From a virus, in the IMG/VR virus record IMGVR_UViG_3300048029_000390, positions 1 to 26,338 of that record: a DNA stretch of 26,338 bases. One strand, written 5' to 3'. The notes under the pieces were generated by a model. It ran no database searches and was not told the origin of the DNA. It was given only the letters and a program-made list of their open reading frames with translations. Below, piece after piece: positions 6,828 through 23,872 of the stretch. How positions within the stretch are numbered: position 1 is the first letter of the stretch; each line of letters starts with the position of its first letter. Made by a program: the position numbers and the translations under genes.

Positions 6828-9800
6828 ATGACAATCAGCAGCACCAACACAAAGAATAGTTATTCCGGCGACGGCTCCACCGTAGCTTTTAGCTATACTT
6901 TCAAAATCTTAGACGACGATGACATCACAGTCATCCTGCGTACTAATGCGACTGGCACCGAAACAGTCAAGACCAAGACGACACACTACAGTGTCTCTGG
7001 GGTTGGTAACGCTGGCGGTGGCACGATTACGTTTGTCTCTGCCCCTGCTGCGACTGAAACTGTTGTCCTGATTCGTGCGATTCCACTGACACAGACCACT
7101 GACTACACTCCTAACGACCCGTTCCCAGCCGTTACCCACGAGGACGCGCTGGACAAGCTGACACTGATGGCGCAGGACACCCAAGAAGAGGTTGACCGTT
7201 CCATCAAGCTGTCGCGCACCAATACAATGACATCGACCGAGTTCACGGTTGGTGCCACTGACCGTGCCAACAAGGTCTTTGCCTTCGACAGCAGCGGTGA
7301 GCTTGCTGTCACGCAGGAGATTGGCACGTTCCAGGGTGACTGGGCCGCTTCGACTGCCTATGCAGAGCGTGATTTGGTGAAGGACACCAGCACCAATAAC
7401 ATCTTTATTGTTAATTCTGCGCATACAAGCTCAGGCTCTCAGCCGCTGACAACTAATGCCAATGCTTCCAAGTATGACCTGATTGTGGATGCGGCCTCGG
7501 CCACCACAAGTGCAACAAACGCAGCCTCCAGCGCGACTGCGGCAGCTACCAGCGCCACAGCAGCGGCTAACTCTGCAACAGCGGCGGCAACATCCGAGTC
7601 AAATGCCGCTAGCAGTGAGTCCGGGGTGGCTGCAAACGCCACAGCAGCGGCTGCAAGCGCGGCTTCTGCATCAACGAGCGCTACAAATGCCAGCACGTCC
7701 GAGACCAATGCGTCCAACAGCGCCTCGGCAGCGGCAACGTCGGCCACCAATGCTGCTACAAGCGCAACCAGTGCGTCTAACTCAGCGTCGGCTGCTGGCA
7801 CATCCGAGACAAATGCGGCGACCAGCGCCACCAATGCTGCTAACAGCGCGGCTGCTGCCTCGACATCTGCCAGCAACGCGGCCACCAGCGAGTCAAATGC
7901 CTCTACAAGCGAGTCTAACGCCTCTACAAGCGCCTCTAGTGCATCCACCAGCGCTTCTAACGCTGCCGCATCTGCTGCGGCTGCTGCGGCCTCCTTCGAT
8001 GCCTTCGACGACATTTACCTAGGTGCCAAAGCCTCGGCTCCGACTGTGGACAATGACGGGGACGCGCTGACGACTGGTGACCTGTATTTCGACACAGGCG
8101 ACAACGAGCTTTACATCTGGAACGGCTCGGCCTGGCAGGCGGCATCACCGAACATTGTTGCTGACACCACCCCGCAACTGGGCGGCAACCTCGACACCAA
8201 CGGCAACGACATCAACTTCGGCGACAACGACAAGGCCGTGTTTGGTGCTGGCTCTGACTTGCAGATTTATCATGATGGGTCGAGTAGCAGAGTTGTAAAC
8301 GCAACAGGCAATCTGAAGTTGCAGGCTGACATTCTAGAGCTTCTAAATGAGTCTGGAACTGAGCAGTATCTCAACGCCACATACAATGGGGCAGTTAATC
8401 TTTATCATAACAACGCCCCTAAACTAGCCACCACCGCCACCGGCATCGACGTGACCGGCACGGCAGTCACAGACGGCCTCACCGTCGCTGGCAACGTCAG
8501 CGTGGACGGCGGCACGATTAAACTTGACGGTAACTATCCTGTAGGCACCGCCAACGTGGCGTTGGGTGACCAAGCACTAGATGACGGTTCTCTCAGCGGC
8601 ACATATAACACAGCTATTGGTCATCGTAGTCTTACCGCAAACACTTCTGGCGCAACCAATGTGTCTGTTGGCGGTGACTCTATGTTGGCGAACACCACCG
8701 GAAGCAACAACGTGTCGATGGGCGTTGGTGCTATGGTTGCGAACACCACAGGCGGTAACAACGTCGCTATCGGTAGACAGGCACTTGATGCCAACACCAC
8801 TGCAAACAATGGAACAGCAGTTGGTCATCAGGCGCTTTCAAGCAACACTACGGCAAGCGGAAACACAGCGGTCGGATATGCTGCTGGCTTCACCAACACT
8901 ACCGGAGGGAGCAACACCTTTGTCGGACAGCAAGCTGGCTACACAAATAACGCAGACAACAACACGGCAGTGGGTAAGGATGCACTTGCCCTAAACACCA
9001 CCGGCGCAAACAATGTCGCTGTCGGTTCAACAGCACTAGATGCAAACACCACAGCATCTAACAACACTGCAATCGGACACAATGCGCTGACGGATAACAC
9101 AACCGGCGCACAAAATGTGGCCGTTGGCACCACCGCTTTGGGTGATAACACAGAGGGGAATAATAACACTGGTGTTGGTTGGAATGCCCTGCGCCTCAAC
9201 ACCACCGCAAACTCCAACTCTGCGTTTGGCTATGCGGCACTTGATGCAAATACCACTGGCACATTGAATGTTGCGGTAGGTGTAAATGCGCTTGGGGCTA
9301 ACGTTACTGGGGGCGATAACACCGCTGTTGGCACAAATGCCTTGTTTGATAATACGGCGTCCGCCAACACCGCTGTCGGTAAAGATGCGCTTGCTAACAA
9401 CACATCCGGCGCAGGGAACACCGCCGTTGGCGCAAACGCCCTTGATGCAAACACCACTGGTATTCGCAATGCGGCACTTGGCAATGGCGCATTAGGCGCA
9501 AGCACTACCGGACAATATAATGCTGCCTTTGGTTGGGGTGCGCTGAACGTCAACACCACCGCATCCAATAACACTGCCGCTGGATACTTTGCACTTGGCG
9601 CAAACACCACCGGCACAAACAACACCGCTGTAGGTCAAATTTCCCTAGATGCTTGTACGACGGGTAATGGCAACACCGCTTTAGGCCGTGCTTCTGCCAG
9701 TTCTTTAACCTCTTCGGATGACAACACTTATATTGGCTATCAGTCTAATTCTGTAGGAGTCTCAGGTGATGACAATACGGGAGTAGGGGCGAATACTCTG

Positions 9801-11465
9801 TACAACAACGCTGCAGCGAACAACACCGCTGTCGGTTCAAATGCGTTATATGCAAACACCACCGGCACAAAAAATGTAGCTGTAGGTGCCTTTGCCCTAG
9901 ACGCAAACACCACTCAAGCGTCTAACACCGCAGTTGGATATAACGTCTTGGGTGTAGCCACATCCAATAACAACACAGGAGTTGGTTCAGACGCACTTGC
10001 CGCAAACACCACTGGAAATGGTCAGACTGCGATTGGCGCACAGACATTGTTGGTAAGCACAACTGGTTCTGGAAACACTGCTATTGGTGGCCCTGTTTCC
10101 GCTGTCACTAATGCCTCTATGTCCGCCAACACTACAGGTTATTGGAACACAGCAGTAGGTTCAGGTTCGCTAACCGCAAACACGACTGGCGCACAAAATG
10201 TTGCAGTCGGACTAAAGGCACTTGCGGCCAACACCACCGCAAACAACAACACGGCATTGGGCTATCAGTCTCTGACTGCAAACACCACCGGCGCATACAA
10301 CACAGCCGTTGGAGACACTTCACTCAGCGCAAACACCACCGGAAATTATAACTCTGCGTTTGGTCGTAGGGCGTTGTTTGACCACACTACGGGCAGTTTC
10401 AATACAGCCGTAGGACATGAAGCCCTACAAAACAACACCACCGCAAACAACAACACAGGTGTTGGGTATCAGGCACTAAACGCAAACACCACCGGCACCG
10501 CCAACACTGCGCTTGGCACTCAAGCGATGACAGCGAATACTACAGCTAGCAACAATGTGGCGTTGGGCCGGAGTGCTATGGTCGTAAACACCACCGGCAC
10601 ACAGAACACTGCTGTTGGTGCGTATGCTCTTGATGCCAACACCACAGCAAACTCAAACGTGGCGATGGGCTATGCTGCTCTTGGCGCAAACACGACTGGT
10701 GCAGAGAACACTGCTATCGGCACCGCTGCACTAGATGCGAACACTACTGCATCTGTCAATACGGCTGTTGGGCGTAGCGCACTTGGGGCAAACACCACTG
10801 GCGCAGAAAACACTGCTGTTGGTTATGTTGCGGCCGACGCAATCACAACCGGACAGAAGAACGTGGCACTGGGGGTTGGTGCGCTTGGCAATGCCACCAC
10901 AGGCGAACTCAACACGATGCTAGGTTATGCCGCTGGCAACGCCATTACCACAGGCCAAAAGAACACTGTCATTGGTGGCTACAACGGCAATCAGGGTGGC
11001 CTCGACATCCGCACAGCCAGCAACCGCATCGTGCTGTCAGATGGCGATGGCAACCCTAGACTATACATGAACGAAAACGGAATACTGTTTTCTCCCCCGA
11101 CCCAAGACAACACCACCGCCGCTGGCGCTAACGTGTTTATCTCAGCCGGACAGTTTTATCGTTCAACATCATCTCAGCGTTACAAAAACACCATCACTGA
11201 TGCCACACACGGCCTGACGGAACTGCTTGCACTGCGTCCTGTTACCTACAAAGGCAACAATGATGGCGACACAATCTTCGGTGGCTTGATTGCTGAAGAA
11301 GTACACGACGCTGGCCTGACAGAGTTTGTTTCTTACGATGACCAAGACAGGCCAGACTCTCTTGCATACGGGAATATGGTGTCGCTGTGCATCAAAGCTA
11401 TCCAAGAACAGCAAGCAACAATCACAGCACTTGAGGCACGTATTGCCACACTTGAGTCCAACTAG
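6828..11465 (+). CDS. Tail fibre: T7 gp17-type anchor, Hep_Hag-like repeats, S74 chaperone
   Basis: A 1545-residue host-recognition fibre. Residues 1-130 match the T7 gp17 N-terminal anchor pattern (NSYSGDGSTVAFSYTFKI; later THEDALDKLTLMAQDTQEEV), which attaches the fibre to the tail. Residues about 220-391 are a low-complexity Ala/Ser/Thr/Asn rod. Residues about 393-570 contain fibre modules such as GDLYFDTGDNELYIWNGSAW and DLQIYHDGSS. Residues 573-1389 hold about 47 copies of a 17-residue repeat, roughly NTAVGxxALxANTTGxx, like YadA/Hep_Hag beta-rolls. Residues 1445-1545 are a peptidase S74 intramolecular chaperone: S1448-S-Q-R-Y-K1453 fits the family S-D-x-R-x-K autocleavage motif with Asp replaced by Ser. 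The ATG follows AAGGAG. Self-cleavage after trimerisation is family knowledge, not shown here. Confidence 0.92.
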   Translation: MTISSTNTKNSYSGDGSTVAFSYTFKILDDDDITVILRTNATGTETVKTKTTHYSVSGVGNAGGGTITFVSAPAATETVVLIRAIPLTQTTDYTPNDPFPAVTHEDALDKLTLMAQDTQEEVDRSIKLSRTNTMTSTEFTVGATDRANKVFAFDSSGELAVTQEIGTFQGDWAASTAYAERDLVKDTSTNNIFIVNSAHTSSGSQPLTTNANASKYDLIVDAASATTSATNAASSATAAATSATAAANSATAAATSESNAASSESGVAANATAAAASAASASTSATNASTSETNASNSASAAATSATNAATSATSASNSASAAGTSETNAATSATNAANSAAAASTSASNAATSESNASTSESNASTSASSASTSASNAAASAAAAAASFDAFDDIYLGAKASAPTVDNDGDALTTGDLYFDTGDNELYIWNGSAWQAASPNIVADTTPQLGGNLDTNGNDINFGDNDKAVFGAGSDLQIYHDGSSSRVVNATGNLKLQADILELLNESGTEQYLNATYNGAVNLYHNNAPKLATTATGIDVTGTAVTDGLTVAGNVSVDGGTIKLDGNYPVGTANVALGDQALDDGSLSGTYNTAIGHRSLTANTSGATNVSVGGDSMLANTTGSNNVSMGVGAMVANTTGGNNVAIGRQALDANTTANNGTAVGHQALSSNTTASGNTAVGYAAGFTNTTGGSNTFVGQQAGYTNNADNNTAVGKDALALNTTGANNVAVGSTALDANTTASNNTAIGHNALTDNTTGAQNVAVGTTALGDNTEGNNNTGVGWNALRLNTTANSNSAFGYAALDANTTGTLNVAVGVNALGANVTGGDNTAVGTNALFDNTASANTAVGKDALANNTSGAGNTAVGANALDANTTGIRNAALGNGALGASTTGQYNAAFGWGALNVNTTASNNTAAGYFALGANTTGTNNTAVGQISLDACTTGNGNTALGRASASSLTSSDDNTYIGYQSNSVGVSGDDNTGVGANTLYNNAAANNTAVGSNALYANTTGTKNVAVGAFALDANTTQASNTAVGYNVLGVATSNNNTGVGSDALAANTTGNGQTAIGAQTLLVSTTGSGNTAIGGPVSAVTNASMSANTTGYWNTAVGSGSLTANTTGAQNVAVGLKALAANTTANNNTALGYQSLTANTTGAYNTAVGDTSLSANTTGNYNSAFGRRALFDHTTGSFNTAVGHEALQNNTTANNNTGVGYQALNANTTGTANTALGTQAMTANTTASNNVALGRSAMVVNTTGTQNTAVGAYALDANTTANSNVAMGYAALGANTTGAENTAIGTAALDANTTASVNTAVGRSALGANTTGAENTAVGYVAADAITTGQKNVALGVGALGNATTGELNTMLGYAAGNAITTGQKNTVIGGYNGNQGGLDIRTASNRIVLSDGDGNPRLYMNENGILFSPPTQDNTTAAGANVFISAGQFYRSTSSQRYKNTITDATHGLTELLALRPVTYKGNNDGDTIFGGLIAEEVHDAGLTEFVSYDDQDRPDSLAYGNMVSLCIKAIQEQQATITALEARIATLESN
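7487..8000 (+). repeat. Ala/Ser/Thr low-complexity rod repeats in the fibre gene
   Basis: Degenerate short repeats encode units such as SATNAAS, SATAAAT and SESNAST with Ala at regular spacing for about 170 residues. This is a common linker or shaft type in marine phage fibres. The skew produces spurious long antisense frames. Confidence 0.8.
8544..10995 (+). repeat. About 47 tandem 51-bp units encoding 17-residue beta-roll repeats
   Basis: The units share NxAVGxxALxANTT-type codons; most are 17 residues, a few are 16, and one (at about 10075-10135) is expanded to 24. Nucleotide identity between units is partial (recurrent aacaccac and gctgt-ggt blocks), so recombination between units is possible, but many units have diverged. 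The repeats make up over half of the fibre. Confidence 0.85.
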
Positions 11466-17815: not shown

Positions 17816-17945
17816 AGCAACGCCGCCACCAAAGGGTTACTACCAGCGCAAGACAAAGCCAACGGCAGCGCAGCAACCGTTTTGGAATAAGCGTAAGAAG
17901 GGTGTGAACAAGCGTCCTAAACGCCGTTCTGCTTCTCGCACTTAA
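17745..17945 (+). CDS. Small basic protein overlapping the resolvase gene
   Basis: A 66-residue frame with GGAGGG about 8 nt before ATG 17745, inside the last 71 nt of the resolvase gene. It reads MKTAAQMTLEEFRNLLAEVT, a Pro-rich linker (TAPPKATPPPKGYYQRK) and a Lys/Arg-rich end. ATG 17763 (MTLEEFRNLL) is an alternative start. Its end overlaps the convergent gene at 17917. The linker and basic tail suggest binding to nucleic acid; no family recognised. Confidence 0.6.
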   Translation: MKTAAQMTLEEFRNLLAEVTAPPKATPPPKGYYQRKTKPTAAQQPFWNKRKKGVNKRPKRRSASRT

Positions 17946-18111
17946 ACTGAGCCTGCATCGGCACAGGGAACAAAGGGATGACCGAGTTGGCCATCTCTAT
18001 GCCCCGTGCAAAGCACTCCGCCTCTGTCTTTTTTAAGCCTGTGGTGTCTTCAAAGAGGACGCACTCATTGGGCTGTCCTATTACGCACACCAGCATGAGC
18101 GTCTTGAACAT
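17917..18111 (-). CDS. Small four-Cys protein, paralogue of the one at 21755
   Basis: A 64-residue product preceded by AAGGAG at 7 nt. It begins MFKTLMLVCVIGQPNECVLF and has Cys at 9, 17, 33 and 58. The spacing and text resemble the protein at 21755-21955. The short apolar start may be an uncleaved export or membrane signal. Similar short genes occur widely in marine phages, function unknown. Convergent with, and overlapping by 29 nt, the gene at 17745. Confidence 0.68.
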   Translation of the reverse strand: MFKTLMLVCVIGQPNECVLFEDTTGLKKTEAECFARGIEMANSVIPLFPVPMQAQFKCEKQNGV

Positions 18112-18130: not shown

Positions 18131-18667
18131 TCAGCCTATCACAGTGGTGGGCAAATCCCTAATCGCCCCCTCCCATTTGTTGTTCTTCGACATATTTTCA
18201 AAAGCCGTGATGACTTGTAGGTTCCATGGCACATGCAAGCCGCAGACGTTCTCTGCCTGTAGCGGCACGATGTGGTCAACATGGTGCTGTATGCCGGTGG
18301 CCTCGGTCATCCGGTCTCGTTCTTTGTAGATGTGCTCAAAGTCTTTGGGCATGAAACCCTTTAGCGTGGCTTGACGCTTGCGGGCTTGGTAGAACCGTGT
18401 CCGGCTAGCCATCTTCTCAGGACGTCGTTCACGGTATTTTTTGCCACGCCTTCTCTGGTGCTCTATTGTCCTCCAATAGTAGTCGCGGTTGATTTCCGCC
18501 CGCCGTTCAGGGTTCCGCTTTGCGGACTCTCTGGCTCGTTTTTTGACACACTCGACGCAACCGCCAGCGACGTACCGTGTCGATACATGCCCATGACCAC
18601 ACGGTTGCCCCGTGAAGTAGTGGCGCAGTCCCTGCGCTATGGCTTCCTGTCTAGTGATGATTTCCAT
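18131..18667 (-). CDS. Free-standing HNH endonuclease
   Basis: The start is set at ATG 18667 (178 residues) because AGAGGAGG lies 8 nt upstream; the longer frame to 18793 runs through the operator array. The N-terminal segment [19 protein letters not shown] with a further ECVKK gives Cys/His ligands (C23, H25, H27, C37, C40) for a zinc ribbon. The HNH core is [20 protein letters not shown] (residues 128-147) then [16 protein letters not shown]. Proteins of this family are mobile, site-specific nickases or nucleases scattered in phage genomes, often selfish; a packaging role is less likely because it is far from the terminase genes. No intron or intein was seen around it. Confidence 0.82.
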
Positions 18668-18744
18668 GTCCGTGTCCTCCTCTTTACAGACGGTTTGAAA
18701 TGTGATATTTGAGTTCCTCATTGTCACGCGGCAGACATGTAACT

Positions 18745-18878
18745 GCCGTGTCATTGTTGCCGCAGTGTCATTGCTGATACAGAAGCAAAACAAACCTTTT
18801 CTAATAAAACAAGCATTGTCCAGTCATTGCTGTTGCAGTACTGCTCCAGCAATGACATTGCTTAAGCAATGACATTGC
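18745..18878. promoter_or_regulatory. Operator-like array of 13-bp dyads
   Basis: Two perfect 13-bp dyads, GCAATGACATTGC, lie at 18849-18861 and 18866-18878, separated by TTAA (17-bp period). Two degenerate copies lie at 18745-18757 (gccgtgtcattgt) and 18762-18774 (gcagtgtcattgc), again with a 17-bp period. Half-sites occur at 18813-18820 and 18823-18830. An imperfect 34-bp palindrome spans 18823-18856 with an inner GCAGTACTGC. The array fills the space between the HTH gene and the HNH gene. Confidence 0.7.
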
Positions 18879-18895
18879 CAGAGATTTTTTAGATT

Positions 18896-19069
18896 TTATT
18901 TTTGTTCCAGCTCCAACGCTTGCAACGCCAGTTCCACAGTACGCGGGATGTCATGCTCTCCGCTTTCGTAATACTGGACGGTACGCCTGGCCAACCCTAG
19001 TCGTTCAGCAAAGCTCTGTTGCGTATAGCCAAGCATTTCTCGGCGGTGTTTCAAGTCATTAGCGGTCAC
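18896..19069 (-). CDS. Xre-family HTH transcription regulator, 57 residues
   Basis: A short gene from GTG 19069, with GGAGG about 9 nt upstream, overlapping the preceding gene by 11 nt. The product is almost only a helix-turn-helix: LKHRREMLGYTQQSFAERLG then LARRTVQYYESGEHDIPRTV, the classic Cro/CI/Xre pattern (TQQSFAERLGLARRTVQYYE as helices 2-3). There is no oligomerisation or protease domain, so it is Cro-sized. The array of dyads begins 18 nt downstream of its stop, suggesting it controls the downstream HNH gene or itself. TTG within the frame is a less likely start. The HTH call is strong; the target is inferred. Confidence 0.82.
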   Translation of the reverse strand: MTANDLKHRREMLGYTQQSFAERLGLARRTVQYYESGEHDIPRTVELALQALELEQK

Positions 19070-19295
19070 TGCCCCATACCTCCTTTTTCTCTATCCAGTG
19101 TGGCTCTGATGCGTCCACCACCTCGCTGATGGCCCAGCAATACAGGCTGTATTCACCCGGCACGTAGTCTTGACGCTTGCGCTTCTCGATGATGGTCTGC
19201 GCCTCCTCCAGCGTGTCGGCTAGCTCGTAGTTGTCCTTGTAGCTGGGCCCGCCCTGTGTGCGGTTAAACTCCAGCGTTGTCACGATGATGTACAT
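19059..19295 (-). CDS. Small hypothetical early protein
   Basis: A 78-residue protein, SD GGAGGACTAGAC then ATG, just after the stop of the upstream gene. It reads MYIIVTTLEFNRTQGGPSYK and EEAQTIIEKRKRQDYVPGEY, a compact alpha/beta-type small domain without a family I can name. It overlaps the HTH gene by 11 nt, so the two are probably co-translated. Confidence 0.68.
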   Translation of the reverse strand: MYIIVTTLEFNRTQGGPSYKDNYELADTLEEAQTIIEKRKRQDYVPGEYSLYCWAISEVVDASEPHWIEKKEVWGSDR

Positions 19296-19297
19296 GT

Positions 19298-19510
19298 CTA
19301 GTCCTCCTTCCAGTTTGATATGTCATTGGTTGACAGGGCAATGTGCGCATTACATTCCCCGCCTTGCTCGTCAGCGCATTGCAGCATCACGTCTTGCACC
19401 TCAATGACTCCTGAGACAAACTTCTCCCAGTCTTGAAGCCCCCATGACATAGTCGCCATTGCCACAACCTTATCGCTGCGGTTTTTTATCCTGATTATTG
19501 CGTTTACCAT
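19298..19510 (-). CDS. Small hypothetical early protein
   Basis: A 70-residue protein with GGAGGG 7 nt before its ATG. The beta-like start MVNAIIRIKNRSDKVVAMAT is followed by a Trp-containing helix and two Cys (QCADEQGGEC). No recognised domain. Member of the tightly packed leftward operon. Confidence 0.66.
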   Translation of the reverse strand: MVNAIIRIKNRSDKVVAMATMSWGLQDWEKFVSGVIEVQDVMLQCADEQGGECNAHIALSTNDISNWKED

Positions 19511-19513
19511 TTC

Positions 19514-19714
19514 TCAGCCCTCCTTCTTGCTTGTGACATAGATGTGATGGCTTTTGATGAGCCAGCCCACCCGGTCGATGCTTTCCCTGATTGCGTCACG
19601 CCATTCCTCGTCCCACACGTCAGGCGGTGCCTCGTCCATCAGGTCAAGCATGTCGCTGGCCGCGCATAAAACCTCGGTGAGGGCTCGTTTCTGGCTTTCG
19701 TTTATCATGTGCAT
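19514..19714 (-). CDS. Small acidic helical early protein
   Basis: A 66-residue protein (ATG 19714, or ATG 19708 two codons later, after GGAG). Acidic middle DLMDEAPPDVWDEEWRDAIR and a helical plan; ends KKEG. It overlaps the upstream gene by 10 nt. Small acidic early phage proteins sometimes mimic DNA or inhibit host enzymes, but nothing here proves that. Confidence 0.64.
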   Translation of the reverse strand: MHMINESQKRALTEVLCAASDMLDLMDEAPPDVWDEEWRDAIRESIDRVGWLIKSHHIYVTSKKEG

Positions 19715-19902
19715 GTTTCTGACTCCTTGTTTCTGATGCGTTCCAAGCCTTCTAGGACAGACCGTTCCTTGCCTAGCTCCATGTCTAGTCGCTCGACCTC
19801 TGACAGTAGGTCGTGCTTGCGCCCGGCTAGGCTTTCAATGATTTGCAGTTGCCGGTCTACCTCGTTCGACCAGTAAGCTACGGCGCGTGTTAGTTCCTGC
19901 AT
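19705..19902 (-). CDS. Small coiled-coil early protein
   Basis: A 65-residue protein predicted to be one long coiled coil: VDRQLQIIESLAGRKHDLLS then EVERLDMELGKERSVLEGLE show regular heptad leucines. The SD is G-rich (GGGGG 8 nt upstream). It overlaps the next gene by 10 nt. Function unknown; probably a dimer or a partner-binding helix. Confidence 0.66.
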   Translation of the reverse strand: MQELTRAVAYWSNEVDRQLQIIESLAGRKHDLLSEVERLDMELGKERSVLEGLERIRNKESETCT

Positions 19903-19915
19903 GTCTCTGTCCCCC

Positions 19916-20194
19916 TCAATGTTGCGTCTCGTCTTCGTCTTCCATGTCCTCGGCTATCAACTGCTTGATGGCGTCGGTCTTGGCTTCGTCTATGATGCAA
20001 GTGAGCATGACCATGCCTGCATCCCTGCCATCGGTGCAACTGTGGGCCATGCGTAGCACTGCATGATGGAACATCAGCGACAGGTTATAGGCTGTCTCTA
20101 AGCTGCCATCGTGCGGGTGATTCGTTACCGCATCCATGCAGGCCTTCAGGAAGTTTGCATCATGTTCGGTCAGTGGGTTGTCTTTGCTGTTCAT
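19916..20194 (-). CDS. Small helical early protein with acidic tail
   Basis: A 92-residue protein in an ATGA overlap with the upstream gene, preceded by AGGAGG. All-helical look, with NYLS-type text (ETAYNLSLMFHHAVLRMAHS) and a very acidic end (EDMEDEDETQH). No domain recognised. Confidence 0.66.
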   Translation of the reverse strand: MNSKDNPLTEHDANFLKACMDAVTNHPHDGSLETAYNLSLMFHHAVLRMAHSCTDGRDAGMVMLTCIIDEAKTDAIKQLIAEDMEDEDETQH

Positions 20195-20481
20195 TTCTCT
20201 GCCTCCTTTGTTGCTATTGCCGCCAGCTTTGCCGCCAGTTTTTCTGGCAGTTCTTGCGGCTTTGAAAAGTCTGCTACGTCGAGCCCCATGCCCGCCGGCA
20301 AGTCGTCACCGGAAACGCTACGCACCCGCAACACGCCGAACCATCGGCCTGTCCGCATGTTCTGTGAAAGCGTTATGTCGTGATACTCATGGCGGTGCAA
20401 AACAAGCTCCCGCCATTCCTCACCCGTGGCCTCGTTGGCTTCCGTGTTGGTCACGTCGTAGGCTTGCCATTGTCTAGTCAT
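20191..20481 (-). CDS. Small hypothetical early protein
   Basis: A 96-residue protein coupled by ATGA to the genes on both sides, with GGGAGG upstream. The first 60 residues look like a small beta-rich fold (EEWRELVLHRHEYHDITLSQ, TGRWFGVLRVRSVSGDD), and the end is a helical Ala/Lys/Glu tail. No recognised family. Confidence 0.66.
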   Translation of the reverse strand: MTRQWQAYDVTNTEANEATGEEWRELVLHRHEYHDITLSQNMRTGRWFGVLRVRSVSGDDLPAGMGLDVADFSKPQELPEKLAAKLAAIATKEAEK

Positions 20482-20696
20482 TGGTTTGCCTCCCTCATGT
20501 AAAGCTGACAGCGCCGCATGGATTCATGTATGTCCCGCATGGCCCAGTCTAGGATGTCCGAGTCTACGCGCCCGGTCTCATGCAATTCTGCTTCAGCATG
20601 AGCCAGTGATTTCAGAGCCCGGTAAACCCGGCGCGTTGCGTCTGCCTCCGGCGTTGTGGTCTCGGTGCGTTTAGCTTTGTGTCTGGTATTGTCCAT
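20478..20696 (-). CDS. Small basic helical early protein
   Basis: A 72-residue protein with GGAGGG 7 nt before ATG 20696. Basic, Thr-rich N-terminus (MDNTRHKAKRTETTTPEADA) and a helical remainder (RVYRALKSLAHAEAELHE). It ends in an ATGA overlap. Function unknown. Confidence 0.65.
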   Translation of the reverse strand: MDNTRHKAKRTETTTPEADATRRVYRALKSLAHAEAELHETGRVDSDILDWAMRDIHESMRRCQLYMREANQ

Positions 20697-20708
20697 GTCT
20701 ATGCCCTC

Positions 20709-20987
20709 CTATGCGTTAAGGTCTGCGAGGCGGTAGGTGCCGGCCTTGATGCGGCGCTTGACCTCGGCAGTGTCGCAGCCAAGAAACTGGTTCCGATACT
20801 TGCTAGTGGTTACGCTGTAGTCCCATGCGTCCCGGTCGAGGTACACAACCCGGTAACCGTTTTCGTAACAGGTCTTTACAATGACCGTGTCGTAGCTTTG
20901 AAAGTAGGTTGCTTCGCTGTCAAAGATGATGAATTGATTTGCGACAGGCTTGCCGGTGCGACCGGTCATCTGTGTTACTTTTGCCAT
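20709..20987 (-). CDS. Small conserved phage protein (SYDTVIVK ... TTSKYRNQFL type)
   Basis: The start is moved to ATG 20987 (92 residues) because GGAGGG lies 7 nt before it. The sequence contains TGRTGKPVANQFIIFDSEAT then FQSYDTVIVKTCYENGYRVV and WDYSVTTSKYRNQFLG. The pattern 'YxTxI ... WDYSxTTSKYxxxFL' recurs in small proteins of many unrelated phages as a domain of unknown function; I recall it but cannot name it. Likely a small alpha/beta protein of early expression. Confidence 0.75.
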   Translation of the reverse strand: MAKVTQMTGRTGKPVANQFIIFDSEATYFQSYDTVIVKTCYENGYRVVYLDRDAWDYSVTTSKYRNQFLGCDTAEVKRRIKAGTYRLADLNA

Positions 20988-21028
20988 TGTTAAACCCTCC
21001 AAGGTTGGCAGTTGGTGATGGTGTAGCG

Positions 21029-21058
21029 TTGCCCGACAATGTGACCAGAATCGGGCAA
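21029..21058 (-). other. Intercistronic hairpin
   Basis: TTGCCCGA (21029-21036) and TCGGGCAA (21051-21058) form a perfect 8-bp stem with a 14-nt loop in the gap between two early genes. No T run follows, so it is not an ordinary intrinsic terminator; RNA processing or partial attenuation is possible. Confidence 0.5.
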
Positions 21059-21066
21059 GGCTGTGA

Positions 21067-21276
21067 TTATTTGGTGGCGTATAGCTTGCGGAAAGTCTGG
21101 CAAGCCCGGTCGAGGCCGTAACCTTTCACAGCGTCGTTAAACTGCTTCCGGGTTATGTTGCGGCCTGTCTCTGTGTCGCGCATCTGTACCGGGTAGGTTT
21201 GGCGCGTTTCGTTGTCGGTGATGATAAGCCAGCCGGAATAAAACTCGGCTGTGTGGTTGTCGGATTCCATGAACAT
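21067..21276 (-). CDS. Small hypothetical early protein
   Basis: A 69-residue protein with GGAGGG 6 nt before ATG 21276. The first half is beta-like (SDNHTAEFYSGWLIITDNET) and the second helical (TRKQFNDAVKGYGLDRACQT). It is flanked on both sides by intercistronic hairpins. No recognised family. Confidence 0.68.
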   Translation of the reverse strand: MFMESDNHTAEFYSGWLIITDNETRQTYPVQMRDTETGRNITRKQFNDAVKGYGLDRACQTFRKLYATK

Positions 21277-21294
21277 GTTGAGCCCTCCAAGGAT

Positions 21295-21315
21295 GGGCGA
21301 CGCATTGCGCCGCCC
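21295..21315 (-). other. Intercistronic hairpin
   Basis: GGGCG (21295-21299) pairs with CGCCC (21311-21315), and inside it CGC pairs with GCG around ATT, leaving one mismatch. It lies between the stop of the first early gene and the ribosome-binding site of the next. Confidence 0.5.
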
Positions 21316-21323
21316 GGTTGTTG

Positions 21324-21605
21324 TTACGCTGCGCGTTCTGCTTCGACCGCTTTCATAATCTGCCGGTCATATTCGTTGGCATCTTGGCAGGCAGGCGTCC
21401 CGATGATGTCAACCGGGTTCAGGCCAAGATTGACGCAGCTGCGATGAGCAAGAGAAGCATAAAATTGCTTTTCCTCGGTTGCCTTTTCCTCCGCATAACT
21501 GCCGACTGGCGACGCCAGCCATGCGTTTTGATGACGTGACCATGTCATCATAAACGTAACAATCTTGGACAGGTGGTCCTGCTGGTCTTGGGTAAATGTA
21601 GTCAT
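21324..21605 (-). CDS. First gene of the leftward early operon, hypothetical
   Basis: The start is moved to ATG 21605 (93 residues), 7 nt after GGAGGG. Sequence: MTTFTQDQQDHLSKIVTFMM, then a helical remainder ending KAVEAERAA; a Trp-containing stretch (TWSRHQNAWLASPVGSY) lies in the middle. No recognised domain. As the promoter-proximal gene of the operon it should be among the first proteins made. Confidence 0.68.
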   Translation of the reverse strand: MTTFTQDQQDHLSKIVTFMMTWSRHQNAWLASPVGSYAEEKATEEKQFYASLAHRSCVNLGLNPVDIIGTPACQDANEYDRQIMKAVEAERAA

Positions 21606-21754
21606 TGTCTTGCCCTCCATTGGCGTTGCGATGATTAAGAGATAGGCGCAATGGTTGCGCTATGCAAGAGACAAAATGCAAAAACAGCGAATAAAAAGTA
21701 TACAGGGCTGTAATTAATGGGTATTTTGTAGGCTCAACATCGGAGGGAAAAGCA
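21606..21754. promoter_or_regulatory. Divergent AT-rich control region with a 15-bp dyad
   Basis: The gap separates the leftward early operon from the rightward gene at 21755. It is AT-rich and holds a perfect dyad GCGCAA-TGG-TTGCGC at 21646-21660. Leftward, TTGCAT then a 17-bp spacer that includes the dyad and TATCTC is a weak promoter match. Around 21700 a TATACT (- strand) or TATACA (+ strand) box lacks a convincing -35. A control region is likely; the exact promoters are not resolved. Confidence 0.45.
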
Positions 21755-21955
21755 ATGATAAAGCTATTGGTAACGGTGTGCCTGCTATCGGCTGGCAATG
21801 ATGCGGCATGCTTCGAGCTTGCCAGCACTGACAGGTTTAAGACGATGGGACAGTGCCAAGACATGCGCGAAAGGATGGTGCGCGAAACATGGCAGTTGAG
21901 ACGCGATGGTAATGTGATGGGCAATGCGCGCTGTGTTGCCGAGCTCGAGGGATGA
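21755..21955 (+). CDS. Small four-Cys protein, paralogue of the one at 17917
   Basis: A 66-residue product with GGAGGG 7 nt before its ATG. It begins MIKLLVTVCLLSAGNDAACF and has Cys at 9, 19, 34 and 60, nearly the same spacing as the protein at 17917-18111. The apolar first 15 residues may be a signal or membrane segment. It is read rightward, opposite to the early operon, and isolated from the terminase genes by 250 bp. Function unknown. Confidence 0.7.
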   Translation: MIKLLVTVCLLSAGNDAACFELASTDRFKTMGQCQDMRERMVRETWQLRRDGNVMGNARCVAELEG

Positions 21956-21989
21956 TGGTTGCTGCGATGGTTGCTGTGATGGTGTGTTG
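21954..21989 (+). repeat. 12-bp tandem repeat, about three units
   Basis: gatggttgctgc (21954-21965), gatggttgctgt (21966-21977) and a diverged gatggtgtgttg (21978-21989). It starts at the stop of the small Cys gene. Confidence 0.75.
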
Positions 21990-22123
21990 AGTGTGTCAGT
22001 ACACACTGCGAAGACACATCCACACGCGGCAATGTATATATGTGACATATCTGCAACAGTGTGACAGTCAGGCCACAGTGACATAACGGCAACAGTGTTG
22101 CAGAAACGCAACAGGAGGGGGGG
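21990..22123. promoter_or_regulatory. Dyads and TGACA-type sites upstream of the terminase genes
   Basis: Non-coding DNA. A perfect inverted repeat AGTGTGT-CAGT-ACACACT occupies 21990-22007. GTGACA occurs at 22042, 22061 and 22078, and a perfect 13-bp dyad GCAACAGTGTTGC at 22089-22101, all at 17-19 bp steps. A TATATA box lies at 22036-22041 without a clear -35 element. This may be the late promoter/operator, a pac or cos region, or both. Confidence 0.45.
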
Positions 22124-22177
22124 ATGCTCACAGGCCGGCACACCCCAGCAGTCGGGGCCGTCGTCTATGTGTGTTAA
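22124..22177 (+). CDS. Possible 17-codon leader ORF
   Basis: A mini-ORF, MLTGRHTPAVGAVVYVC, lies directly behind a strong AGGAGGGGGGG and 29 nt before the small-terminase ATG. A CCCC-agcagtc-GGGG hairpin (22143-22157) lies inside it. The ribosome-binding site is its main support; it may be fortuitous. Confidence 0.25.
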   Translation: MLTGRHTPAVGAVVYVC

Positions 22178-22205
22178 TTGTCCCCTACACACTCACGGAG
22201 AAAGC

Positions 22206-22586
22206 ATGGGCAAGATTACAAAGGCAAACACAACCAAGGTCATTGAGCTACTGAGCGAAGGCCACAGCTTAGTGAAGGCTTGCGAGGCCGCTGGCATATC
22301 CCGTGCTGGCGCTTACAAGCGCATGAGGGCCGATGAGGAGTTTCGGGCCGCTGTGTACACGGCAAGGGCTGAAAGCGCTGAGAAGGCTCTGGAGGAGCTT
22401 GACGGCATGTATTTGAACGCACTGGAGGGAAAGAGGCGGTATGACCCAAACATATTACGGGACTATGCGCAACACGTGCGCTGGCGGGCTAAGACCTCTA
22501 TGCCAGAACAATACGGTGAGCAGAAGAACCGGGCTGGTGTTGAGGTGAGTGACGGCACGGTGCGTATCCTGTGGGAGACTGACTGA
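22206..22586 (+). CDS. terS: Terminase small subunit
   Basis: The start is ATG 22206 behind GGAG; longer frames have no support. 126 residues: an N-terminal helix-turn-helix (VIELLSEGHSLVKACEAAGI then SRAGAYKRMRADEEF, about residues 12-46), a helical oligomerisation region (TARAESAEKALEELD) and a C-terminal beta-like tail (GVEVSDGTVRILWETD). This is the usual plan of small terminase subunits, which recognise the packaging site and load the large subunit. The stop overlaps the large-subunit start (TGATGG), confirming the pair. Confidence 0.85.
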   Translation: MGKITKANTTKVIELLSEGHSLVKACEAAGISRAGAYKRMRADEEFRAAVYTARAESAEKALEELDGMYLNALEGKRRYDPNILRDYAQHVRWRAKTSMPEQYGEQKNRAGVEVSDGTVRILWETD

Positions 22587-23872
22587 TGGACGTCAAGATT
22601 CCCTACAAGCCTCGTCCTTTGCAGAAGGACATGCACAAGGAGTTGAAGAGATGGAATGTGTTGGTGATGCACCGCCGATTTGGCAAAACGGTGTGGGCAG
22701 TGAACCAACTAATCAAGACGACTTTGACTTGCCCGTTGCCACGACCGAGGACGGCTTTTGTAGCTCCTACCTTTGCCCAGGCGAAGCGAATAGCGTGGGA
22801 TTACGTCAAGTTCTACGCGGGCGTCATCCCTGGCGTTCAGTTCAACGAGACAGAACTCCGCGCTGACTTTCCGAATGGCGGCAGGATTATGCTGCTGTCG
22901 GCTGAGAACCCGGACGCCCTTCGGGGCATCTACCTTGATGAGTGTGTCTTTGACGAGTTTGGCATGCAGAACCCAAGGGTATGGGGGGAGGTTGTGAGAC
23001 CGGCACTGTCTGACAGGCAGGGGTCGGCTTGTTTTTTGGGAACCCCGGCGGGCCACAATCATTTTTTTGATTTGCTGGAGACCGCTAAGGGCCAGTTGGC
23101 GGAGGGCAGCAGCGACTGGTACTACAAGATTTGCAAAGCCAGTGACACAGGGATTGTGCGGCCAGAGGAGCTGGAGGCGGCTCAGGCGCAGATGACGCCG
23201 GAGCAATACGAGCAGGAATACGAGTGTTCATTCACCGCAGCGATTATTGGAGCGTATTATGGTAAGTTGTTGTCAGATGCTGACGATGCTGGCCGCGTAA
23301 CGCGGGTGCCGTATGACCCGGCCTATCCTGTGCATACGGCTTGGGACTTGGGCATTAACGACTCGACAGCCATCTGGTTTGCGCAAGTGTTTCGCGGGGG
23401 TGCGGTAAATGTTATTGATTATTACGAGAGTTCTGGGGTTGGTCTCGACCATTATGCAGATATACTCTCAAAGAAAGACTATACGTATGGCGACCACCTC
23501 GCTCCTCACGACATTGAGGTCCGTGAGTTGGGCTCGGGTAAAAGCCGCTGGGAAACGGCTTATACGCTGGGAATCAAATTCAGGGTCATCCCAAAAATGA
23601 AGGTGGCAGATGGCATTAACGCAGCGCGTATGTTAATACCTAAATGTTACTTTGACCGCGACAACTGCGGCGAAGGTCTTGAGATGCTGAGACAATACCG
23701 GCAGGAATGGGATGAGAAGCGTAAATCTTTCAGAGACCATCCGCGCCATGACTACACAAGTCACGCAGCCGATGCCTTTCGCTACCTTGCCGTTGGTTTG
23801 GAGAATAGAGAAGTTATGCGCAAGCCCCCGCAGCAGACTGCGCAAATGGATTACAACCCGTTTACGCTATAG
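22586..23872 (+). CDS. terL: Terminase large subunit (packaging ATPase-nuclease)
   Basis: 428 residues with both terminase domains. ATPase: Walker A HRRFGKT (29-35), adenine or Q-motif-like PRPLQKDMH, Walker B with the catalytic pair D123-E124 (YLDECVFDEF), and coupling motif FLGTPAGHNHF (150-160). RNase-H-like nuclease: D254 in AWDLGINDST, D309 in HLAPHDIEVRE, and D396 in SHAADAFRYLAVG. It cuts concatemeric DNA and pumps it through the portal. The compact size and motif spelling resemble the Terminase_6-type subunits of podoviruses without a T7-type gp19. Starts in an overlap with terS. Confidence 0.94.
   Translation: MDVKIPYKPRPLQKDMHKELKRWNVLVMHRRFGKTVWAVNQLIKTTLTCPLPRPRTAFVAPTFAQAKRIAWDYVKFYAGVIPGVQFNETELRADFPNGGRIMLLSAENPDALRGIYLDECVFDEFGMQNPRVWGEVVRPALSDRQGSACFLGTPAGHNHFFDLLETAKGQLAEGSSDWYYKICKASDTGIVRPEELEAAQAQMTPEQYEQEYECSFTAAIIGAYYGKLLSDADDAGRVTRVPYDPAYPVHTAWDLGINDSTAIWFAQVFRGGAVNVIDYYESSGVGLDHYADILSKKDYTYGDHLAPHDIEVRELGSGKSRWETAYTLGIKFRVIPKMKVADGINAARMLIPKCYFDRDNCGEGLEMLRQYRQEWDEKRKSFRDHPRHDYTSHAADAFRYLAVGLENREVMRKPPQQTAQMDYNPFTL

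Follow-up and report, generated by a model that had tools for sequence, protein, structure and literature searches.

A block of exchangeable small genes behind a predicted self-repressed promoter in a podovirus-type phage related to the HTVC010P group

What does a run of ten very small genes do for a phage, and how might its expression be controlled? We addressed this question for IMG/VR virus record IMGVR_UViG_3300048029_000390, a stretch of 26,338 bases with a G+C content of 54% that was analysed over its whole length (hereafter the window) and is perhaps a fragment rather than a whole genome. Its positions 19059-21605 carry ten leftward genes, g1 to g10, all on the minus strand, and these are followed by a 57-residue gene for a Cro-like helix-turn-helix (HTH) protein. 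An earlier annotation made from the letters alone (the original prediction) had taken the ten genes for a leftward early operon of orphans serving host takeover or anti-defence. We consider it rather probable that the block is an accessory early operon that limits itself, with a payload that prepares the cell, part of such kits being anti-defence, and with the HTH protein as the shut-off.

The ten-gene block is real. Ten consecutive leftward open reading frames (ORFs) with ATG starts, 65-96 residues long, lie exactly where they had been placed. When ATG ORFs of at least 60 residues were counted, the ten covered 94% of the coding strand of 19059-21605, against two ORFs and 13% cover on the antisense strand, and 300 dinucleotide-preserving shuffles of the coding strand gave a mean of 3.6 ORFs (maximum 9) with a mean cover of 33% (maximum 72%). 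A GGAGG core precedes eight of the ten genes at a spacing of 7-8 nucleotides (nt), so that the near-identical GGAGG sites at 5-8 nt reported earlier hold for these eight, while g7 has GAGG only and g8 has AAGGAG. The ATGA-type overlaps of 4 nt that had been ascribed to the block occur at two of the nine junctions (g4/g5 and g5/g6) and are absent from the other seven; g7 and g8 overlap by 10 nt, g10 and the HTH gene by 11 nt, and wider gaps separate g1 from g2 (47 nt) and g2 from g3 (79 nt). Furthermore, each window gene was compared with its nearest relatives (up to six pairs shown per gene), and the nine genes with relatives showed selection, with ratios of nonsynonymous to synonymous substitution (dN/dS) of up to 0.35 against close relatives, the exceptions being one distant g1 pair at 0.63 and one saturated pair each for g7 and g8. 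The label "orphan" fits g5; the other nine have relatives in uncultured sister phages, and g3 is a DUF8033 protein.

The content of the block turns over rapidly among these relatives. From 174 loci, 54 blocks were cut between terS and the HTH/exo side, and 39 distinct blocks, window included, were left after duplicate removal. They hold 409 called genes with a median length of 68 residues in 145 clusters, 80 of which have a single member, and the addition of 45 further blocks, called from 600 nt outward and up to the HTH gene only, brought the totals to 84 blocks, 707 genes and 229 clusters. Both the calls of first genes and the numbers of clusters are approximate, as the simple gene caller swaps g1 for an overlapping 240-residue frame (cluster c9), in the window as well as, probably, in other blocks; g1 itself, being outside the first-set representatives, was scanned for families separately. 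The only widespread occupants are g10 (34 of 39 blocks) and the HTH gene (34 of 39 by tblastn, 24 of 39 by stricter clustering). In ten other blocks with a TerL at least 92% identical to that of the window, g8, g10 and the HTH gene are present in all ten, g4 in six, g7 in four, g6 in three, g1 and g3 in two each, g2 and g9 in one each, and g5 in none. Single genes also depart from the relatedness of their surroundings: g9 is 96% identical (proportion of synonymous differences 0.058) in contig 3300017909_002634, where g8 is 65% and g10 71% identical, and g3 is 87% identical to its homologue in locus L085, though terS is 54% and g10 34% identical there, and just 56% identical to that of L005, though the TerL proteins share 98%. 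By these comparisons, the block genes are exchanged one at a time. By eye, the endonuclease slot 3' of the HTH gene varies too, a different protein following a similar leader sequence in L007, L009 and L016, which suggests a second exchange site behind the HTH gene.

We then asked what stays constant around this changing content. The promoter region assigned to the block (21639-21667, minus strand) consists of a -35-like TTGCAT (21662-21667), a 17-nt spacer and a -10-like TATCTC (21639-21644), and the spacer contains a predicted operator, the 15-bp inverted repeat GCGCAA-CCA-TTGCGC (21646-21660, minus strand). This is an exact dyad of 6+3+6 bases, of which the window holds no other mismatch-free copy. 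The position is homologous to the TTGACA/T promoters of sister phages, many relatives having TTGACA or TTGACT. With TTGAC or TTGCA, a dyad of at most one mismatch and a -10-like element as the criterion, a promoter-embedded dyad was found in 31 of the 39 blocks, window included, against a mean of 1.62 and a maximum of 5 in shuffles, and exact dyads were found in 10 blocks against 0.06 in shuffles. It occurs in 31 of the 34 blocks that bear the HTH gene and in none of the five that lack it; an AT-rich GTAAAC..TTTTAC site taken by the scan for L079 and a doubtful site in L089 are kept in these counts, as is a site of the AT-rich kind for L274 in the first count of the new loci given below. The arms of the dyad vary with compensation (GCGCAA..TTGCGC, CGGCAA..TTGCCT, AGGAAA..TTTCCT, GTGCAA..TTGCCC, ATGCAC..GTGCAT). 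The promoter-embedded dyad of the block is a new observation, and the papers listed in searches of the open-licence PMC literature described neither this operator nor this operon.

The operon ends with a 57-residue gene (18896-19069, minus strand) that has AAGGAGGT 8 nt before its GTG start and encodes an HTH_3 (Cro/C1-type) regulator (Pfam E-value 6.4e-9, 36.2 bits against a cut-off of 23), predicted here to be a self-repressor. Its recognition helix varies together with the dyad. In the first set, all ten loci with arginine at residue 32 had G as base 2 in each half-site, and 18 of the 21 with glutamine had C/C, at least the L079 site being a wrong pick; on the TerL tree (37 rows) the arginine state falls into two separate clades. 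Three further scans yielded 68 independent new regions, 45 of them with the HTH gene. In the pooled set the gene was found in 79 of 107 sequences and a strict site in 50 of these 79, and 49 loci entered a partial Mantel test. Operator distance correlated with recognition-helix distance at r 0.75, at 0.68 after removal of TerL, and at 0.54 given TerL and the rest of the HTH protein (p 0.0005 for each of the latter two). Given the helix, operator and TerL distance correlated at -0.12, which is not significant, and operator distance still correlated with the rest of the HTH protein given TerL and helix (0.36, p 0.0005). Over 50 loci, base 2 of the two half-sites read GG in all 12 loci with R at residue 32, CC in 22 of the 23 with Q, AA in all six with T, TT in all three with Y, TG in both with K, and, for S, TT in three cases and AA in one; new helix classes came with new operators, such as TIRMITY with TAGAAC..GTTCTA. 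New loci with R had a strict site in four of eight cases (all GG), CGG.. sites with two mismatches in three and none in one, and new loci with Q had a site in three of eight (all CC) and none in five. A site was also present in 10 of the 23 new regions without a detected HTH gene. All 23 are short (1.7-3.6 kb), and tblastn found neither the exo nor the PD-(D/E)XK gene in them; they may therefore end before the HTH gene and were not counted as lacking it. Because the promoter dyad co-varies with the recognition helix beyond TerL relatedness, we infer that the HTH protein represses the promoter of its own operon.

These results are consistent with a simple circuit. On entry of the phage, host sigma-70 RNA polymerase would transcribe leftward from 21639-21667, and the ten small products would prepare the cell, kits of this sort being directed at least in part against host defence, chiefly restriction. 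The 57-residue protein, as the last cistron, would dimerise on the 15-bp repeat between -35 and -10. Since a dimer bound there should exclude RNA polymerase, repression would be expected rather than activation, and transcription of the operon would run in a naive cell and cease as the product of the last gene builds up. The single leftward early-type operon of the original prediction is supported by the promoter, the operator and the likely self-repressor, its timing being deduced from this arrangement, and we regard the early, self-limiting model as well supported.

Such a circuit would follow the logic of acr-aca operons (Aca1-Aca10), which, as far as the available parts of PMC9410906 and PMC9410881 describe them, likewise place a small HTH gene behind small early genes, the Aca proteins working through inverted repeats in the core promoter. 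In the block, a 57-residue HTH_3 gene stands at the 3' end, overlapping g10, and the inverted repeat sits in the core promoter of 31 of the 39 blocks, with the weak -35 and -10 elements of the window among them. The model for the window also agrees with the descriptions of Aca1, Aca2 and Aca10 in the accessible text of PMC9410881, PMC9410906 and PMC8434428. By spacing and approximate register, residues R29, Q32 and Y33 in the recognition helix of the window protein correspond to the contacts R30, Q33 and Y34 given for Aca2 in the part of PMC9410881 consulted, where the Aca2 repeat contains CGCAATTGCG, as compared with half-sites CGCAA and TTGCG in the window. Unlike acr-aca operons, the block has no proven acr gene, up to ten payload genes and half-sites 3 bp apart, and many operator and helix specificities occur inside one phage group. 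The window protein is also nearer to 434 Cro than to the Aca proteins of the PDB by profile: the search gave the designed DNA-binding protein DBP48 (1.4e-9), 434 Cro (6.8e-8) and HipB (6.5e-5), with 434 repressor also matched, and Aca1 (2.8e-4), Aca2 (4.6e-3) and Aca7 (8.4e-3) behind 434 Cro and HipB. A single-sequence search does not separate 434 Cro from the Aca proteins. In function the window HTH protein is probably Aca-like, a likeness that we regard as well supported. Archaeal viruses offer another parallel: in the available portion of PMC11065993, anti-defence genes are rapidly evolving, small and early, have a conserved strong promoter, and are thought to be silenced by the co-expressed HTH protein Aca8. 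The block shares with them fast-evolving small early genes, a shared regulatory tag and a predicted HTH shut-off; in that source they are mostly single genes with their own promoters, whereas the block is one operon with one promoter in a bacterial-type podovirus.

As for the payload, counter-defence is the best single reading, though demonstrated for none of the ten genes, and its clues come from relatives. In the operator-tagged operon of L327, behind TTGACA-ct-ATGCAATCCTTGCAT-TATGTC, an ArdC-type gene (ArdcN 5.4e-26, zincin 1.5e-46, PHROG anti-restriction 4e-84) is directly followed by a g3 homologue (L327:4427-4720, 49% identical to g3, profile probability 99.8%), further small genes and the HTH gene. 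In L010 a DNA methyltransferase (phrog_757, 7.5e-58) takes the place of g5-g7, flanked by homologues of g4 and g8, and a member of the same cluster is present in L083. GP88, a named family without known role, is present in 7 of the 39 blocks. The family scans of the first set used one representative per cluster (145 of 409 genes), matches not being tied to a member, and its PHROG scan gave 25 of 38 families among the matches listed; the new blocks were scanned with PHROG alone, for 60 of the 89 new-only clusters, the longest ones. Sister phages fill the slot with other genes, some of the anti-restriction type, and the block looks like a kit of exchangeable parts with which the phage overcomes its host. 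One of the representatives is a cytosine methylase; it was left uncounted, as it is probably the 366-residue gene on the far side of g10 in L037, a block that has no HTH end.

The one named window gene, g3 (20709-20987, 92 residues, dN/dS 0.05-0.24), matches phrog_21575 (PHROG E-value 4.5e-19), and its best two BFVD matches, named DUF8033, have template-modelling scores of 0.89 and 0.86 by query (best E-value 3.7e-10). The gene agrees with DUF8033 in both sequence and fold, the name being taken from the BFVD rows; the Pfam scan of g3 listed no DUF8033 match. Among phages, DUF8033 was found in 55 records, upstream of the phage RNA polymerase in the T7-type phages HTVC201P, HTVC021P, Proteus PM 93 and Edwardsiella WCT72P1, within stretches of small genes in Rheinheimera Barba19A and an Acinetobacter Saclayvirus, and as the third gene of a matching divergent block in Skadi-7. 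To our knowledge, no function of DUF8033 has been measured, and the open-licence PMC search found no paper naming it. The structural comparison with known inhibitors that had been proposed was carried out for g3 and g10, whose fold models (pLDDT 93 and 87) gave no PDB structure match at an E-value of 0.001 or below. Five PDB-sequence profile searches (g3, g10, g8, g4 and g6) gave nothing convincing, g4 having no match at an E-value of 1 or below, and none of the ten products had a significant match to virion or metabolic proteins in the Pfam, PHROG and NCBIfam scans, so that the outcome named as refuting the original prediction did not appear. From VIA-align Z scores of up to 5.5 for g10 (led by PurS and PII, with 4.9 for the p56 uracil-DNA-glycosylase inhibitor) and up to 5.1 for g3 (metallo-beta-lactamases) no function was drawn, as this level is common, and AcrIF9 and p56 among the g10 Foldseek rows (E-values 0.5-1.5) were not used.

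Several observations weigh against the preferred reading of a self-limiting kit that is in part anti-defence. The -35 and -10 elements of the window are weak, each with three of six consensus positions, and a general sigma-70 scan listed neither. When two mismatches were allowed, 36 of 39 blocks scored, including two of the five without the HTH gene, against 9.4 in shuffles; this level says little, because such blocks and shuffles score as well. By the first criteria a site was found in 19 of the 45 new loci with the HTH gene, one R locus having AG and one Q locus TT. In the pooled set 29 of the 79 loci lack a strict site, including five of the six with helix LSRRTIQAYEL. The co-variation test is not a blind validation, since the preference for TTGAC was added after spurious picks had been seen among the new loci. 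The Pfam, PHROG and NCBIfam scans of the ten block proteins gave no match to a known inhibitor, anti-CRISPR or anti-restriction protein. At least 3 of the 84 blocks have a recognised ArdC or DNA methyltransferase of these kinds (cluster representatives scanned), most occupants being without an assigned function. Finally, no host was found, the genome_contigs scan giving one TerL match, at 51%, in a metagenome-assembled genome. The takeover or anti-defence idea of the original prediction therefore stands in part: interchangeable small genes, ArdC and methyltransferase in the slot of relatives, and the location of the g3 family upstream of RNA polymerase speak for it, and the ten proteins themselves lack an anti-CRISPR or anti-restriction match.

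A bolder version of this reading is possible and is put forward tentatively. Throughout this large group of uncultured phages, one conserved self-repressed promoter would mark a swappable counter-defence kit, in which operator and HTH gene are fixed and each phage inserts up to about a dozen small genes between them; most of the 229 families counted in the 84 blocks would be inhibitors of bacterial immunity, the HTH/operator pair would drift towards new DNA specificities, and DUF8033 would be a widely shared inhibitor.

The T7 early proteins redirect host transcription, replication or metabolism, and an early, self-repressed operon could carry a payload that mainly does the same, counter-defence being incidental. 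Homologues of g3 do lie in T7-type early regions, and most occupants are without a defence-related match among the matches listed. In the available part of PMC12753301, RNA-seq of HTVC022P defines an early cluster with RNA polymerase and MarR high early, and the early-expressed genes of HTVC027P are all of unknown function. We judge this explanation unlikely: the nameable occupants, ArdC and DNA methyltransferase, are anti-restriction types, GP88 being a named family without a role, and rapid turnover and exchange suit arms-race genes better than fixed host targets.

The arrangement of g10 and the HTH gene is reminiscent of a toxin-antitoxin pair, toxin first and HTH antitoxin second, with the other genes as hitch-hikers. 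The two overlap by 11 nt and, of the 23 blocks with calls for both, 19 have them side by side; no payload gene is more widespread than g10, and HipB is among the HTH relatives. Such a pair should be inseparable, yet L037, L049 and L051, which are without a detectable HTH gene, keep two g10-cluster genes each, and in L045, L070, L077 and L119 another called gene stands between the g10 homologue and the HTH gene, so that we find the pair improbable. Slightly more improbable still is a lysogeny-type repressor with the block as prophage cargo silent in the lysogen. The HTH_3 domain, the good PDB profile matches to 434 Cro and 434 repressor, and an operator inside a promoter would suit it, but 57 residues are about the length of a DNA-binding domain only, the gene is the last of the operon that it would control, neither an integrase nor a partner repressor was recognised among those window proteins that were scanned, in a record that may be a fragment, and genome contigs gave just one TerL relative. 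That the small ORFs are spurious or decaying, as the lack of curated-library matches for most of them might suggest, is scarcely credible and largely refuted for nine of the ten by the tiling against shuffles, the Shine-Dalgarno (SD) sequences and the dN/dS values with their stated exceptions, the case for g5 consisting of its SD sequence, junctions and length.

If the self-limiting, partly anti-defence operon is the correct explanation, the operator and the HTH gene would provide a sequence handle for collecting early counter-defence candidates in a large group of uncultured phages, with no need for a known anti-CRISPR as bait. The natural helix-operator pairs, with R, Q, T, K, Y or S at residue 32, would form a test set for changes of HTH specificity, and DUF8033, an unexplained family, would be placed beside ArdC in one operon.

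Of the remaining payload genes, g10 (19059-19295, 78 residues) is the most widespread, in 34 of 39 blocks by clustering and 28 of 39 by tblastn from the window copy, window included in both, with dN/dS 0.13-0.21. Next comes g8 (19514-19714, 66 residues), conserved in the close clade and present in 13 of 39 blocks, window included, among them all ten others with TerL of at least 92%; its dN/dS is 0.08-0.30 for five of the six nearest relatives, one pair being saturated. Ten blocks, again with the window, contain g4 (20478-20696, 72 residues, dN/dS 0.05-0.17), for which weak matches to the CRISPR Csm6/CARF family (Pfam 0.12, NCBIfam 0.045) were set aside as probably chance. Five blocks on the same count contain g6 (19916-20194, 92 residues, dN/dS 0.06-0.25), and five contain g7 (19705-19902, 65 residues), which is coiled-coil-like by eye and has dN/dS 0.24-0.29 for three of four pairs, one being saturated. 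Acidic products had been noted at 19514 and 19916: the most acidic is g6, with an isoelectric point of 4.6 and a charge of about -12, and g8 reaches about -6. A recently exchanged gene, g9 (19298-19510, 70 residues), has dN/dS values of 0.35 and 0.29, and its weak Pfam match to DUF1496 (0.012) was set aside. Neither g1 (21324-21605, 93 residues) nor g2 (21067-21276, 69 residues) has an assigned function; g1 has matches in five other loci, counted before duplicate contigs were removed, and dN/dS 0.16-0.20 for three of four relatives, with 0.63 against the most distant, and g2 has one relative contig, 94% identical, with dN/dS 0.13 from this single pair. The orphan g5 (20191-20481, 96 residues) has a good SD sequence and ATGA junctions, and no relative in the 174 loci, the viral_contigs scan, the phages collection or the genes called in the 84 blocks. 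In the phages collection, tblastn gave nothing for g1, g4, g5, g6, g8, g9 and g10 and four weak matches for the HTH gene, and a DNA-level search with window positions 18500-22500 gave no match.

The TerL gene (22586-23872) is nearest to those of the Pelagibacter HTVC010P-type podoviruses, at 49-52% identity over 99% of TerL, as read from the 20 best of 924 phage records, all Pelagibacter phages; by this relatedness the window phage groups with the HTVC010P type and is podovirus-type, and it is probably lytic. The viral_contigs scan with TerL matched 459 relatives, of which the best 80 were retained, and the Acidimicrobiaceae metagenome-assembled genome with the single 51% match in the genome_contigs scan was not accepted as host. 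Skadi-type pelagiphages (HTVC010P-type in the consulted part of PMC10504331) are those with this TerL identity, and Skadi-7, like the window, has a divergent run of small genes with DUF8033 third; the window has 54% G+C against about 32% in Skadi, the tblastn matches obtained with the Skadi-7 stretch L178 do not include the window HTH gene, and the hypervariable region described in that part of the paper is at virion genes, elsewhere than the block. T7-type (Autographiviridae) early regions resemble the block in having DUF8033 among small genes upstream of RNA polymerase; unlike them, the window operon ends in an HTH gene, and the scans of window proteins recognised no phage RNA polymerase among those covered.

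Upstream of the block, the terminase genes start about 600 bases away in the opposite direction. Downstream of g10 lie, in order, the HTH_3 gene, an endonuclease VII-like gene and a PD-(D/E)XK gene; the regulator expected beside the block is this HTH_3 gene, and the supposed HNH gene matches PHROG endonuclease VII and has no Pfam family at an E-value of 0.1 or below. The ORFs beyond are presumably an exonuclease, an ERF-type and an SSB-like gene, the family scans naming none of the three. Between the HTH and endonuclease VII-like genes lies a second regulatory region (18738-18883, minus strand) with repeated GCAATG(A/T)CATTGC sites: AGCAATGACA with at most one mismatch occurs 13 times in the window against 2.25 expected, six of the 13 at 18749-18874. 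Similar sites exist in close sister phages, L023 and L025 having a longer perfect palindrome there, and the array may serve a different regulator as its operator.

The divergent region ahead of terS holds two tandem 36-nt units (22042-22113), 78% identical, with GCAACA/TGTTGC and GTGACATA motifs, and GCAACACTGTTGC from this region was found again in several relatives. Two small proteins of 66 and 64 residues (21755-21955 and 17917-18111), alike by eye in their hydrophobic start and spaced cysteines, have no PHROG match at an E-value of 0.001 or below and are possibly exported paralogues. A tail fibre or spike of 1545 residues (6828-11465), in which many successive NTAxG-type repeats are visible by eye, has PHROG matches to tail spike and virion structural proteins. 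Finally, contig IMGVR_UViG_3300025889_000115 (L098 and L107), at 64,029 bases about twice the length of its relatives' genomes, carries two different ERF-type genes, 91% and 84% identical to that of the window, and is possibly a chimeric assembly of two related phages.

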